46,902 bases of DNA. Origin: Candidatus Rokuibacteriota bacterium. GTDB taxonomy: Bacteria; Methylomirabilota; Methylomirabilia; Rokubacteriales; CSP1-6. This document shows positions 29,000 through 33,437 of this stretch, piece by piece. A program made the translations under genes and the position numbers. The stretch's first letter is position 1, and every line of letters starts with the position of its first letter. The DNA lies in assembly GCA_003220435.1 (NCBI GenBank), contig QHSL01000014.1:1-46902 (forward strand). Reading direction: 5' to 3'. Under the pieces are notes generated by a model that was not told the DNA's origin, ran no database searches, and saw nothing but the letters and a program-made list of their open reading frames with translations.

Positions 29000-29794
29000 T
29001 CAGCGCTCGCGAGCGGGTGGGTTTCGGCGTCGACCCAGAGCACACGCGCCGAGCACGACGAGCCCCGCGGTCACGAGCACCCAAGTGTCGGCTTCGGGGA
29101 CGGAGCCTCCCTGCGTGGTCACTTCGATGATGAAGTCGTTGAAGTCCTGGTCGGCAATCGAGAATGGACGGTCTTCGGCCCCGATCCAGAACGTGTAGGA
29201 GTCGGGACCCTCGAACGCGGCAAAATGCTGGTCGCTCGTCTCGTCGCTCGGGTTTCCCGAAGAGAGCGTATACCACGTGGCGCCGTGGACGGCGCTCGTC
29301 AGGTAGTAGCCGTAGTACAAGGTCGGCGAGAACTCCGCGCTGGATTGGCCGGTCACCCCGCTGAAGAGCGGATGAGTCGCGCCGATCACGGCGCCGGTCG
29401 CATCGGTCTCGAACCAGCCAAACACGTTGGTCTCCGCGTTGCCGGCGATGACCAGGTGCAACACGGCGTTGCTGTTCCCAGAGGCGTGAAAAAAGAAGCT
29501 CGGATCCGCCGCTCCACCCAGCGCACCCCAGAATGGGATCGCCCCGGGAGCGCCGGCGCCGAGCTGAGGGCACCGCCCCGCGGCGGTCAAGCAAAAGCCG
29601 ACGCTCATCTGTGCGCCGTCGCCCGACCCGTTGTTCCAGTACGGGATCCCGTTCTGGTCGGTCAACGTGGCGGATGTCCACGACTGCCAGTTGTTGCCGG
29701 GGGTTCCCAGCAGACTATCGGCCAGGGCGGGCGGAGCCGCCATCGCCGTGGTCCCGACCAGTGCTGTCAACAGGACGAAATCCCGTAGTTTCAC
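29000..29794 (-). CDS. PEP-CTERM sorted exported protein
   Basis: A 264-residue protein with a signal peptide (KLRDFVLLTALVGTTAMAAP) and a C-terminal sorting signal: VPEADTWVLV, then a hydrophobic helix (AGLVVLGACALG) and a GRRR stop. This is the PEP-CTERM arrangement recognised by exosortase, which couples such proteins to extracellular polysaccharide. The middle part is rich in Gly, Ser, Asn and Trp, and I find no enzyme motif. The GTG at 29794 follows GGGAAGG. An ATG 13 codons upstream lies inside the -24 element of a sigma-54 promoter and cannot be used with that promoter. No exosortase gene is in the window. Confidence 0.8.
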   Translation of the reverse strand: MKLRDFVLLTALVGTTAMAAPPALADSLLGTPGNNWQSWTSATLTDQNGIPYWNNGSGDGAQMSVGFCLTAAGRCPQLGAGAPGAIPFWGALGGAADPSFFFHASGNSNAVLHLVIAGNAETNVFGWFETDATGAVIGATHPLFSGVTGQSSAEFSPTLYYGYYLTSAVHGATWYTLSSGNPSDETSDQHFAAFEGPDSYTFWIGAEDRPFSIADQDFNDFIIEVTTQGGSVPEADTWVLVTAGLVVLGACALGRRRNPPARER

Positions 29795-29817
29795 AGGCCT
29801 TCCCGAGCGGGTACCGG

Positions 29818-29832
29818 GCAAGAGTATTGCCA
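29818..29832 (-). promoter_or_regulatory. Sigma-54 (RpoN) promoter of the PEP-CTERM gene
   Basis: On the minus strand TGGCAATACTCTTGC carries the -24 GG and -12 GC with exactly ten bases between them, as the sigma-54 consensus requires. Transcription would start near 29806, leaving a 12-base leader that contains the GGGAAGG ribosome binding site before the GTG at 29794. Confidence 0.75.
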
Positions 29833-29860
29833 TTCCGGGGTCCCGTTTAAATTCTTGGGG

Positions 29861-29925: not shown

Positions 29926-31161
29926 TCACTCCGACTCGTATTCATACGAGTGCTGCGCGTCGAGGAGCCTCAGCCGCGTATAGACGCCGACGGCCGCCGG
30001 CGCGTTGAACTCGAAGCCGCGGACGCCCGGGTCGATCGAGATGAAGGACGTGGTGCCGTCAGGGTTCAACTTGCTGGCCATGCGGCTCTGCCAACCGCCG
30101 AACTGGAAGACGACCTCGTCCGGGCCCCCGCGGACGACGATCTCGCCGAGGGCCGGGTTGCGGTACGCTCTCGCGAGCCGCTTGACCTCGGCGGGCTCCG
30201 GAGGCACCTTCCAGTCCCGCTGCTCGCCGCAGAGGTACGCGTGAGACTCACGCACGCTTGACAGCAGGCCCACCTCGGCCTCGGGCTTGCCGTCGTAGAT
30301 CACCTCCAACGTGCGGAGCATGATCGCCCTCACCACGCCCCAACCGGAATCCGCGTTCGTGAGGAAGACGCCGCCGACCCCGATGTCCGGCACGAAGAAG
30401 AAGTCGCTCTTGTAGCCGAACATCGAGCCGCCGTGGCTGATGACGCGAATACCCTTGATGTCCTCGATCCAGAGGCCCATGCCGTACCAGGAGTTCTCGC
30501 CCGTCCTTACCTGGGGCACGCGCCGCGCGACCAGATTTTTCTCGGTGACGAACGCCGACCCATCCGGCAGCCGTCCCCGCGCGAGCTCGAGGCGCACATA
30601 GCGTGCGTAGTCTCGCACGCTCGACCATGCGCCGCCGGCGGGACGGACGGGGATGATCGAGTGGTTCAGGACCATGTCGATGGGCACGTTGCGCAGCGAC
30701 ATGTCCCGCGAGTGCGGCGAGGCGTGGTCGGCGCGCAACGCTTCGTCGAATGAAAAGGTCGTTCGGCTCATCCTCAGCGGGCGGAAGACCTTGTCGCGCA
30801 TGACCTCGTCGTAGGCCACGCCGATCTCGCCGTCGGGCTGGATCGTGCGCGCGCCGATGTAGCCGGCGGCGGAGGCCAGTGGATTGCTGTACTGGAAGAG
30901 CGCGCCGAACCCGGTCGTGGGCTTCATGCTCGCCAGCACGTCGAGCTGGCCCTGCGGCGAAGAGCGATGGAAGGTGAAGAGCCACTCGAGGATCAGACCA
31001 TCCGGCGACGCGGTTACGGTCCAGTCGGCCGCGACCTTGAGTGTGGCGCCCGACGGAAGCGCCACCACGCGGTCGGTGGCCGCCGGCGGAGCCATGGCGC
31101 CGGGGGAAGGCCCAGCGCACCCCGCCAGCGCGGCGAGGGCAAGGAGCAACCCATACAACAT
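29926..31161 (-). CDS. Serine hydrolase (beta-lactamase/PBP-like) lipoprotein lacking the SxxK segment
   Basis: A 411-residue protein with a lipoprotein signal (LLLALAALAGCAG, lipobox Cys15). It goes directly from a short beta segment (LPSGATLKVAADWTVTASPD) into the late part of the class C beta-lactamase/esterase fold: FQYSNPLASAAGYIGAR (the Y-x-N motif), VFRPLRMSRTTF, and the HGGS motif in VISHGGSMFGYKS. The N-terminal half of that fold, which holds the catalytic S-x-x-K and the HTSG-like turn, is missing. The frame is intact, so this looks like an in-frame deletion that leaves an inactive protein. It sits 12 bases after the upstream gene. Confidence 0.75.
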   Translation of the reverse strand: MLYGLLLALAALAGCAGPSPGAMAPPAATDRVVALPSGATLKVAADWTVTASPDGLILEWLFTFHRSSPQGQLDVLASMKPTTGFGALFQYSNPLASAAGYIGARTIQPDGEIGVAYDEVMRDKVFRPLRMSRTTFSFDEALRADHASPHSRDMSLRNVPIDMVLNHSIIPVRPAGGAWSSVRDYARYVRLELARGRLPDGSAFVTEKNLVARRVPQVRTGENSWYGMGLWIEDIKGIRVISHGGSMFGYKSDFFFVPDIGVGGVFLTNADSGWGVVRAIMLRTLEVIYDGKPEAEVGLLSSVRESHAYLCGEQRDWKVPPEPAEVKRLARAYRNPALGEIVVRGGPDEVVFQFGGWQSRMASKLNPDGTTSFISIDPGVRGFEFNAPAAVGVYTRLRLLDAQHSYEYESE

Positions 31162-31566: not shown

Positions 31567-32640
31567 CTAGAAGACCTCGGCCAGCTTCAACGGCTTCGCC
31601 CGCTCGCGCCGGTGCCCCGGCCCGAAGGCCTCGGTGAGCCCCTGGCAGATGATCGGCAGCGCGATCGTCACGTCGGCGAAGCACATGACGTTGTCGCTGC
31701 CGTGCGCCTCCTTGCCCCAGGAGATGCACTCGGTGGCGAGCGTCGCGCCGCCGAGGCCGCCGAAGACGGTGTTGTCGGTCGTGATCTGGATCGAGGCCTT
31801 GTGCGGCGTGGCGTCGACGTTGCCATAGCGGGTCCGGACGCTGGTGGCCGTGATCTGTAGGAAATCCTTCGGCACGCCGCCGCCCAGGAAGACCACCGAG
31901 GTCCCACGCTTGGACGTCATGGCGTTGTCCATGATGTCGGTCGCGATCCGGTAGTCCTTGAAGAAGTCGACGACCGGCGCCAGCTCGGCCTTGCTGCAGG
32001 TGCTGTACCCCTCGCCGATCGGCCCGTCCGGCAGCCCGCAACAGAAGACCGGGACCTGGCAGCGCGCTGCGGTCGCCAGGATCGACTTCGGGAAGCCCTT
32101 GGCGTCGAGCCAGAGCCCGAGCTCGTAGAGCAGGCGCGAGGTCGGGATCGTGGGCTTGCGCCACGTCTCCGCCAGCTCGTCGAAGAACCGGCCGGTGACG
32201 AGCGTCTCCATCTGGTCGTACTTCTTCGAGGAGACGATGTGGTCGTAGAAGCGGTAGTAGCCCCTCTCGGCCAGCGCCCGGTCGTCGACGTGCTCGGGAT
32301 CGACGCGATAGACGCGCGTCTCTTCCATCATGTCGAGCAGGTCCTCGGTGATGTTGGCCGAGGTGGATGCCAGCACGTCCACGTAGCCGCGCTCCACCAG
32401 CCACGTGACGAGCGGCCACATGCCCGCGCTCGACATCGACGCCGCGTAGCCGAGACAGATGACGCTGTCACCCTCGATCATCTTCTTCCAGGCGTCGAAG
32501 GCCTCTCCGAGCTTCCGGCCCTGGAAGGCCGACTTGCTCATCCGGCCAAGCAGCGCCAGCACGCTGCTCGGCGGGCCGCCGGCTACCGTCATGGGTTCGC
32601 GGACAAGCCTCGGGTCGTCGTAGCGGAGATCGCCGGCCAT
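31567..32640 (-). CDS. Deoxyhypusine synthase-family protein, possible homospermidine synthase
   Basis: Deoxyhypusine synthase moves the aminobutyl group of spermidine to a lysine of eIF5A; bacteria lack eIF5A, and some relatives instead make homospermidine. This 357-residue protein has the NAD-binding TSANITEDLLDMM, VVFLGGGVPKDFLQI and CISWGKEAHGS, whose Lys310 matches the lysine that carries the aminobutyl intermediate. The active site therefore looks intact. An AGGAG in the end of the previous gene precedes the ATG at 32640. The upstream neighbour, 8 bases away, is a SpeD-like protein, which points to polyamine metabolism. Confidence 0.88.
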   Translation of the reverse strand: MAGDLRYDDPRLVREPMTVAGGPPSSVLALLGRMSKSAFQGRKLGEAFDAWKKMIEGDSVICLGYAASMSSAGMWPLVTWLVERGYVDVLASTSANITEDLLDMMEETRVYRVDPEHVDDRALAERGYYRFYDHIVSSKKYDQMETLVTGRFFDELAETWRKPTIPTSRLLYELGLWLDAKGFPKSILATAARCQVPVFCCGLPDGPIGEGYSTCSKAELAPVVDFFKDYRIATDIMDNAMTSKRGTSVVFLGGGVPKDFLQITATSVRTRYGNVDATPHKASIQITTDNTVFGGLGGATLATECISWGKEAHGSDNVMCFADVTIALPIICQGLTEAFGPGHRRERAKPLKLAEVF

Positions 32641-32648
32641 GGTCGCTC

Positions 32649-33437
32649 CTATCGCTGAGGAAGCCAGGTGCGTGACTTGGCGTGCTCGTCGGCCCGCTCG
32701 GTCCGGAGGTACCGGTACCGGCTTCCCCGCGCGATCAGCGCTTCCTGAACGCTGCCGCCGGGGAACTGAGCCAGAAGCCGGGGCATGACGAAGTTCCGGT
32801 CGAAGAAGCGGCACGAGAACAGGTCGAAGTACGCGCGTTCCTCGTGGGGGAACACGTGAAGGCTCACGTGACTCTCGGCGATCATCGTCATCGCGCTCAG
32901 GACGGACCGCCCGGCGACGCGATCCTGGATGACGTAGGGGCGCATGATCGGCGTCATGCCGATCAGGGCGGGGAGCCGGTCGAACAGGTTGAAGAGCGCG
33001 TCCAGGCTCTGCGGGCCCTGATAGGCATCGACGTTCAGGAACAGGTGCGGGCCGAAGTCGTTCTCGACGTCTGGCTCGGAGTCCTTCAGGTCCTGCCGGT
33101 CGACGGTGTGCACGCTCGTGACCGCGCACGGGAAGACGGCCTCGAGGAGCGCCCGGAGCTTGGCCGGGTTGAAGTCGTCCGGCGCCACCAGATCGGCAAA
33201 ATACGTCTCGCGGAAGGAGAAGGTGTGGAGCGTGAAATGTCCGCCGGCGAGAAACACGAAGGCACTGATCCCGCAGTCCTCGGCCACGACGCCGTTGTAG
33301 TACGGAAGCACGAACGCCGGCATCGTCCGCCGGAGCCCGAGCTGAGCGGGCGCGTCCTCCAGGATCTCCTGGATCAGGCGCGCGTCGTCGAAGCGCGAAC
33401 GGAATCCCCGGAACCCGTCAATCGTGAAATGGAGCAT
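32649..33437 (-). CDS. SpeD-like pyruvoyl decarboxylase (AdoMet decarboxylase family), tandem-duplicated fold
   Basis: The 262-residue protein contains two related halves. The C-terminal half has MIAESHVSLHVFPHEERAYF followed by DLFSC: Ser189 in E-S-H is the expected self-cleavage and pyruvoyl-forming residue, with His194 and Cys209 as the processing and catalytic residues. The N-terminal half has FLAGGHFTLHTFSFRETYFA then DLV at the same place, with Gly-Gly-His instead of Glu-Ser-His, so it cannot form pyruvate. This matches the eukaryote-like two-domain form. SpeD relatives that have become ornithine or arginine decarboxylases are known. GGGGGTG precedes the ATG at 33437. Confidence 0.82.
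   Translation of the reverse strand: MLHFTIDGFRGFRSRFDDARLIQEILEDAPAQLGLRRTMPAFVLPYYNGVVAEDCGISAFVFLAGGHFTLHTFSFRETYFADLVAPDDFNPAKLRALLEAVFPCAVTSVHTVDRQDLKDSEPDVENDFGPHLFLNVDAYQGPQSLDALFNLFDRLPALIGMTPIMRPYVIQDRVAGRSVLSAMTMIAESHVSLHVFPHEERAYFDLFSCRFFDRNFVMPRLLAQFPGGSVQEALIARGSRYRYLRTERADEHAKSRTWLPQR

Follow-up and report, generated by a model that had tools for sequence, protein, structure and literature searches.

A SpeD fusion with a silenced N-terminal half, a predicted arginine decarboxylase paired with a DHS-family enzyme in Rokubacteria

Introduction

Clusters that combine SpeDA, a pyruvoyl-dependent arginine decarboxylase, with SpeY, a homospermidine synthase of the DHS family, are already published, as are several SpeD fusions (Li 2023, PMC10407285). 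The locus described here has in common with the SpeDA and SpeY pairs the SpeD fold, the pyruvoyl Ser/His/Cys residues, an adjoining DHS homologue and an agmatinase in the genome; SpeDA, however, is a single-domain protein, whereas here two SpeD units are fused and the N-terminal one is dead. Two SpeD halves per chain of about 270-320 residues, one of which may be dead as in the present case, are also found in the SpeD-SpeDC fusions of Desulfotignum and Omnitrophica OLB16 and in the half-dead fusion of Victivallis (PMC10407285). In those proteins the live AdoMet decarboxylase is the N-terminal half and the dead half, if there is any, the C-terminal one, which is the reverse of the order found here.

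The eukaryotic class 2 AdoMet decarboxylases (human, potato) likewise carry a duplicated fold within a single chain, one half being live and the other dead, and in trypanosomes a dead paralogue, the prozyme, is kept as the partner of the live AdoMet decarboxylase, the two being separate proteins there and a single chain in our case. A literature search that covered few subscription papers found no earlier report of a SpeD fusion with a dead N-terminal and a live C-terminal half. The new part of this study is a widespread family of such fusions, which genome comparisons lead us to predict as arginine decarboxylases.

Results

The window, that is, the whole stretch of DNA analysed (46,902 nucleotides), corresponds to contig C26 in an assembly of 5.4 Mb (95.5% complete) from a soil bacterium of Candidatus Rokuibacteriota. 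It encodes a fused SpeD homologue, hereafter the double SpeD, and a DHS-family enzyme whose ATG lies 8 bp downstream of the double SpeD stop (Table 1). The start of the double SpeD was set at the motif M(L/Y)HF..DG common to its relatives (here MLHF.IDG), with trimming of a longer open reading frame, and neither gene is assigned to any family by NCBIfam.

Table 1. Features of the double SpeD and DHS genes in the window
Feature	Position	Strand	Basis or remark
Double SpeD (fused SpeD homologue, 262 aa)	32649..33437	-	ATG at 33437, stop at 32649
N-terminal SpeD half, catalytically dead	33060..33437	-	Gly66 at the Ser position; without Cys; His71 kept
Gly66 codon (Ser position of the N-terminal half)	33240-33242	-	Sequence
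C-terminal SpeD half, predicted live	32652..33059	-	AES189H, His194, Cys209
Ser189 codon, predicted self-cleavage site and pyruvoyl source	32871..32873	-	Aligned to T. maritima S63
DHS-family enzyme, 357 aa, predicted homospermidine or agmatine-coupling synthase	31567..32640	-	ATG at 32640, stop at 31567
Lys310 codon, catalytic Lys of DHS (human K329)	31711..31713	-	Sequence alignment

The order double SpeD then DHS recurs in 13 of the 16 Rokubacteria that carry the double SpeD, and it stays constant while the upstream neighbours change between genera, which bears out an earlier note, made on this DNA, that took the two genes for a real module. No DHS was found in the genomes of two further carriers (G043 and G052), and a third (G036) yields a fragment only. 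Two neighbours, an SDR gene upstream and an FxLYD-like gene downstream, were considered as members of the module and rejected, as they adjoin the pair only in the window's genus. Elsewhere in the window, positions 29926-31161 encode a protein of PF00144 (beta-lactamase/serine hydrolase family) and 29000-29833 a protein that resembles DUF4114 and has a weak PEP-CTERM motif.

Each half of the double SpeD exceeds the cut-off of PF02675 (AdoMet_dc) in a profile search, and the two halves align to each other with a score of 72 (27.5 +/- 4.6 for shuffled sequences, with 0 of 1000 shuffles scoring as high). The earlier note had seen two copies of the fold, one with the pyruvoyl serine (AESH) and one without (GGHF), and this is what we find; its Ser189 is the residue numbered so here. 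In the C-terminal half, Ser189, His194 and Cys209 have the spacing of S63, H68 and C83 in the T. maritima enzyme, and the triad is restricted to this half; the N-terminal half shows GGH at residues 65-67 and lacks both Ser and Cys, His71 being retained. An alignment of double SpeDs gives the motif GGH(F/L)T(I/L)HTFS in the N-terminal half and MIAESH...H...D.FSC.FF in the C-terminal half of 43/43 sequences. A live AdoMet decarboxylase N-terminal half of the SpeD-SpeDC type was thus not encountered, GGH standing in place of ESH in every one. Between the window and genome G050, dN/dS is 0.08 for the dead half, 0.19 for the live half and 0.15 for DHS, and in the comparison with the more distant L015, for which dS is near saturation, the dead half again has the lowest value. 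These ratios indicate that the dead half is under strong purifying selection and is not decaying.

The AlphaFold2 model of the double SpeD (pLDDT 90, pTM 0.88) has as its top match across both halves in VIA-align 2 the human AdoMet decarboxylase (1jl0, Z 16.2, rmsd 3.0 A over 201 residues, 8% identity). The T. maritima enzyme fits one half (Z 15.7, 112 residues, 2.7 A), and the trypanosome AdoMet decarboxylase/prozyme system is matched with Z 12.7. The ranges aligned to the human enzyme are collinear, so that its live N-terminal half pairs with the dead half of the double SpeD: the active half is N-terminal in the human protein and C-terminal here, and the predicted substrates differ. By likeness to the dimeric class 1b enzymes, we infer that the dead N-terminal half contributes to the active site.

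This structural match, together with the AESH motif, a Ser/His/Cys triad like that of AdoMet decarboxylases, and the linkage to speE in some Clostridia (see below), would be expected of a genuine AdoMet decarboxylase that parallels the eukaryotic enzyme in bacteria, in which case DHS would take its aminobutyl group from spermidine. We regard this reading as very improbable: the double SpeD scores 44.9 bits against the NCBIfam class 1b AdoMet decarboxylase model TIGR03330, below the cut-off of 75.65, and nearly all the double-SpeD genomes checked hold another SpeD besides speE, in two cases in the same operon. A Pro is reported to be fixed in AdoMet decarboxylases (Li 2023, PMC10407285); at that position, which we located from the text of the same paper, double SpeDs vary, with Pro in most Rokubacteria and Glu or other residues elsewhere.

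A family-by-family search found the double SpeD in 16 of the 95 genomes of the phylum. Beyond Rokubacteria, full-length relatives with 45-61% identity come from Myxococcota (Sorangium isolates among them), Aminicenantes, Bacillota (among them Thermincola MAGs and the isolate Alkalibaculum sporogenes) and a single alphaproteobacterial MAG. We rejected chance and artefact as explanations, since the architecture and motifs recur across several phyla and are found in isolates and MAGs alike. When the separated halves were placed in a tree, in which the single-domain comparators were phage homologues only, the N-terminal halves form one group (100/100) and the C-terminal halves another (91/100), and both group with the phage proteins, away from canonical AdoMet decarboxylases, by a weak branch (67/91). 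Since the same dead N-terminal and live C-terminal halves are shared by Rokubacteria, Myxococcota, Aminicenantes and Bacillota, the sequences fit one old, single fusion. Viral contigs yielded no double SpeD, and single-domain homologues at only two close loci.

Two further observations concern the database entries and paralogues in these groups. A contig titled as a Klebsiella pneumoniae MAG (L094, CAMDBH010000029.1) carries a double SpeD that, with the next two genes, matches Myxococcales loci, and its label looks wrong. Four Bacillota genomes (G103, G105, G108, G114; loci L103, L104, L105, L107) encode small SpeD homologues in open frames of 127-158 aa, from which the catalytic Cys and His are missing (SC/TC is replaced by SW or CW); these are free-standing dead paralogues, and the genomes also encode a double SpeD and a canonical SpeD.

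The gene content of the window's own genome was searched for the rest of polyamine metabolism. On contig C9 a canonical speD precedes speE, accompanied by a divergent agmatinase gene, speB (TIGR01230, 196.7 bits, cut-off 174.3), so that the ordinary spermidine route is encoded. The earlier note had remarked that no spermidine synthase is near, which holds for the window and fails for the genome, and its suggestion of a cell with no AdoMet step is contradicted by the complete speB/speD/speE cluster. Of the genes that it proposed to look for, speE is thus present; neither the pyruvoyl arginine decarboxylase PvlArgDC nor an OKR-type decarboxylase was found in this genome, in which the sole PF02784 protein is LysA. 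Many related Rokubacteria have the cluster speB-PvlArgDC / speD-speE, with PvlArgDC above its cut-off; genus g2 and the genus of the window lack PvlArgDC, both in the cluster and in the genome, and keep the agmatinase. Within the same family, PvlArgDC is absent from 11/15 genomes with the double SpeD versus 4/35 without it (Fisher p 3e-5), counts that are phylogenetically non-independent, as one or two losses may account for them. Arginine is suggested as the substrate because of this pathway hole, an agmatinase being present with no other arginine or ornithine decarboxylase found in the genome, and the pattern suggests that the double SpeD took the place of the unrelated PvlArgDC in the window's lineage. 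Against this, three genomes of the family (G046, G047, G077) keep both enzymes and one (G055) has neither.

The neighbourhoods in Clostridia, an independent case, point in the same direction. At locus L089, a class 1a SpeD, speE, an agmatinase and the double SpeD stand in a row; L086 has the class 1a SpeD, speE and the double SpeD, with no agmatinase in the row; and at L078 the double SpeD is joined by speE and agmatinase, with a canonical SpeD elsewhere in the genome. The class 1a SpeD proteins of L086 and L089 are above the cut-off of TIGR03331. Because a separate SpeD, speE and agmatinase are present, arginine decarboxylation would be the missing step in these loci. A speE linked to the double SpeD in relatives, which the earlier note had named, in combination with proven AdoMet decarboxylase activity, as a finding that could overturn its reading, does exist in Clostridia; yet it does not prove the double SpeD to be an AdoMet decarboxylase, because these genomes hold a separate, canonical one. 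Four clostridial PF01276 proteins were checked as possible SpeA (G103, G104, G110, G111) and set aside, as they adjoin tmk and/or holB, like YaaO. Agmatine deiminase is present in 5/5 of the double-SpeD Bacillota without agmatinase (G103, G105, G108, G110, G114) and in three Myxococcota (G095-G097). One or other of the two agmatine-using enzymes is found in 18/20 double-SpeD genomes outside the phylum, a count that covers carriers of the double SpeD only, and such enzymes are common.

Single-domain homologues provide a functional anchor. In Microcystis phage MaAM05 (L116, 2498-5276) the genes speD, speH_1, speE and speB form a row, and the product of speH_1 is 31.9% identical to the C-terminal and 24.5% to the N-terminal half of the window protein. 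Both halves of the double SpeD thus resemble one single-domain homologue, unlike those of the SpeD-SpeDC fusions. Vampirovibrio has two speD genes with speE and speB, and its second SpeD was shown to be an arginine decarboxylase (Li 2023, PMC10407285); by analogy, this protein would be the closest, if indirect, functional anchor for the double SpeD.

The main competitor for the substrate is ornithine. A SpeDC-like ornithine decarboxylase would make putrescine, from which DHS would form homospermidine, and this is the reading closest to the AdoMet-free one proposed earlier. SpeDC has a TSH motif and an upstream Gln, whereas the live half of the double SpeD reads AESH in 43/43 sequences, and three of the four SpeDC-diagnostic residues (Gln, Thr, Phe, Tyr), at positions assigned by our own reading, appear to be absent. 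Relatives of pelagiphage HTVC103P offered no ODC-type motif class by which to fix the SpeDC residues. The retained agmatinase, moreover, would have no agmatine to act on in the window's own genome (G000) and in the clostridial operons. The published SpeD-SpeDC fusions have their ornithine decarboxylase in the C-terminal half, the half that is live here, and SpeDC with SpeY was named as a possible NAD-only route (Li 2023, PMC10407285). On balance, ornithine seems to us an unlikely substrate, with the caution that genome context can mislead, because the ornithine decarboxylase of Methanolacinia also coexists with SpeB (Li 2023, PMC10407285).

The DHS-family enzyme has the catalytic lysine, Lys310, in the motif SWGK and scores 223 bits against PF01916, as expected from its earlier description as a DHS partner with the catalytic Lys. 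As in SpeY and CdmS, the family and the lysine go together with a genome without eIF5A; this DHS differs from them in that no NCBIfam model for DHS, SpeY or BGAN synthase is matched above its curated cut-off. The eIF5A family (PF01287), another target of the search proposed in the earlier note, was absent from 18/18 Rokubacteria genomes, with archaeal control genomes positive, and the enzyme is therefore not for hypusine, as far as these 18 genomes show. The fold model has a mean pLDDT of 81.6; no active-site reading was drawn from it because residues 290-311, beside the catalytic Lys, have values below 50.

The product is more likely to be homospermidine made from putrescine, in the manner of SpeY, than the product of agmatine coupling. 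In Thermus, CdmS couples two agmatines (PMC10981699), and a similar enzyme here would form caldomycin (1,9-bis(guanidino)-5-azanonane), which agmatinase would convert to homospermidine with no free putrescine; this route is compatible with arginine as the substrate of the double SpeD, whose product DHS would use directly. Two residues distinguish CdmS from human DHS, and both are altered in this DHS (D316 to Gly/Leu, D243 to Glu), but the second remains acidic where CdmS has Phe. The score of 131.5 against the caldomycin/BGAN-synthase model NF002699 (cut-off 500) is lower than the 145.4 against the SpeY homospermidine synthase model NF001980 (cut-off 450), and DHS proteins 56-60% identical are also present in about 12 other Rokubacteria without the double SpeD. 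Agmatine coupling is thus a tentative alternative. Judging by those genomes, DHS has a history of its own there. Around the position of human D243, the linked enzymes read CGLPDGP(I/L)GE and the unlinked ones PAAPDGPL.E. In several Rokubacteria without the double SpeD (L034, L036, L037, L039, L041, L043, L044), DHS repeatedly adjoins a divergent SAM-methyltransferase-like gene with UbiE/BioC-like matches below cut-off.

No DHS lies beside the double SpeD among the loci outside Rokubacteria. Within the phylum, G043 and G052 (L032, 8405-10654; L063, 1-5838) carry a double SpeD of 67% identity that is flanked by SbnA-like and SbnB genes; in G052 a non-ribosomal peptide synthetase of the Pls/PosA family (TIGR02353, 700.8 bits, above the cut-off) and then an Ala_racemase_N protein come next, and this is perhaps a poly-diaminopropionate-type cluster. 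Such a setting would suit an enzyme that makes a special amine from another amino acid, for example 2,3-diaminopropionate or 2,4-diaminobutyrate. For the fusion described here we consider this improbable, as the Sbn context belongs to one branch, and everywhere else both gene linkage and gene content point to polyamine synthesis. Substrates may nevertheless vary, because DHS is unlinked outside Rokubacteria and this relative of the fusion stands beside SbnA and SbnB in two Rokubacteria.

Discussion

In this study, we describe a SpeD fusion that forms a pseudo-dimer within one chain and that probably decarboxylates L-arginine with a pyruvoyl cofactor, as SpeDA does; the most likely reading of the two-gene module is an arginine decarboxylase followed by a homospermidine synthase. 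The C-terminal half would cut itself at Ser189, generating the pyruvoyl cofactor, and the N-terminal half, having lost the cleavage site, is probably kept to complete the active site and to hold the dimer together. The double SpeD would then convert arginine to agmatine, from which the agmatinase of contig C9 would release putrescine, and the NAD-dependent DHS homologue would build homospermidine out of two four-carbon units, with putrescine as the most likely substrate.

This model modifies what had been proposed from the DNA of the locus. That the decarboxylase does not act on AdoMet is probably right, with the evidence favouring arginine over ornithine. If the substrate is arginine, the pair cannot make putrescine by itself, as was suggested, and needs the agmatinase encoded elsewhere; the other half of the suggestion, homospermidine as the DHS product, probably stands.

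A bolder version of the model, which we offer as rather speculative, is that two fused SpeDA-type units, the first silenced, constitute a widespread class of bacterial arginine decarboxylases, an independent mirror of the eukaryotic AdoMet decarboxylase, that displaced PvlArgDC in Rokubacteria, with agmatine passing straight to a coupling DHS in a two-gene route from arginine to a guanidinopolyamine.

If the arginine decarboxylase reading is true, the half-dead, half-live SpeD architecture of the eukaryotic AdoMet decarboxylase would have arisen more than once, with either half able to fall silent, and on a different substrate. The double SpeD would then offer a bacterial system for asking why a dead half persists. 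It would also give a proposed function to a family of Rokubacteria, Myxococcota, Aminicenantes and Bacillota that now scores as a weak relative of AdoMet decarboxylase, and would supply the missing arginine decarboxylase for several of the genomes that encode it.
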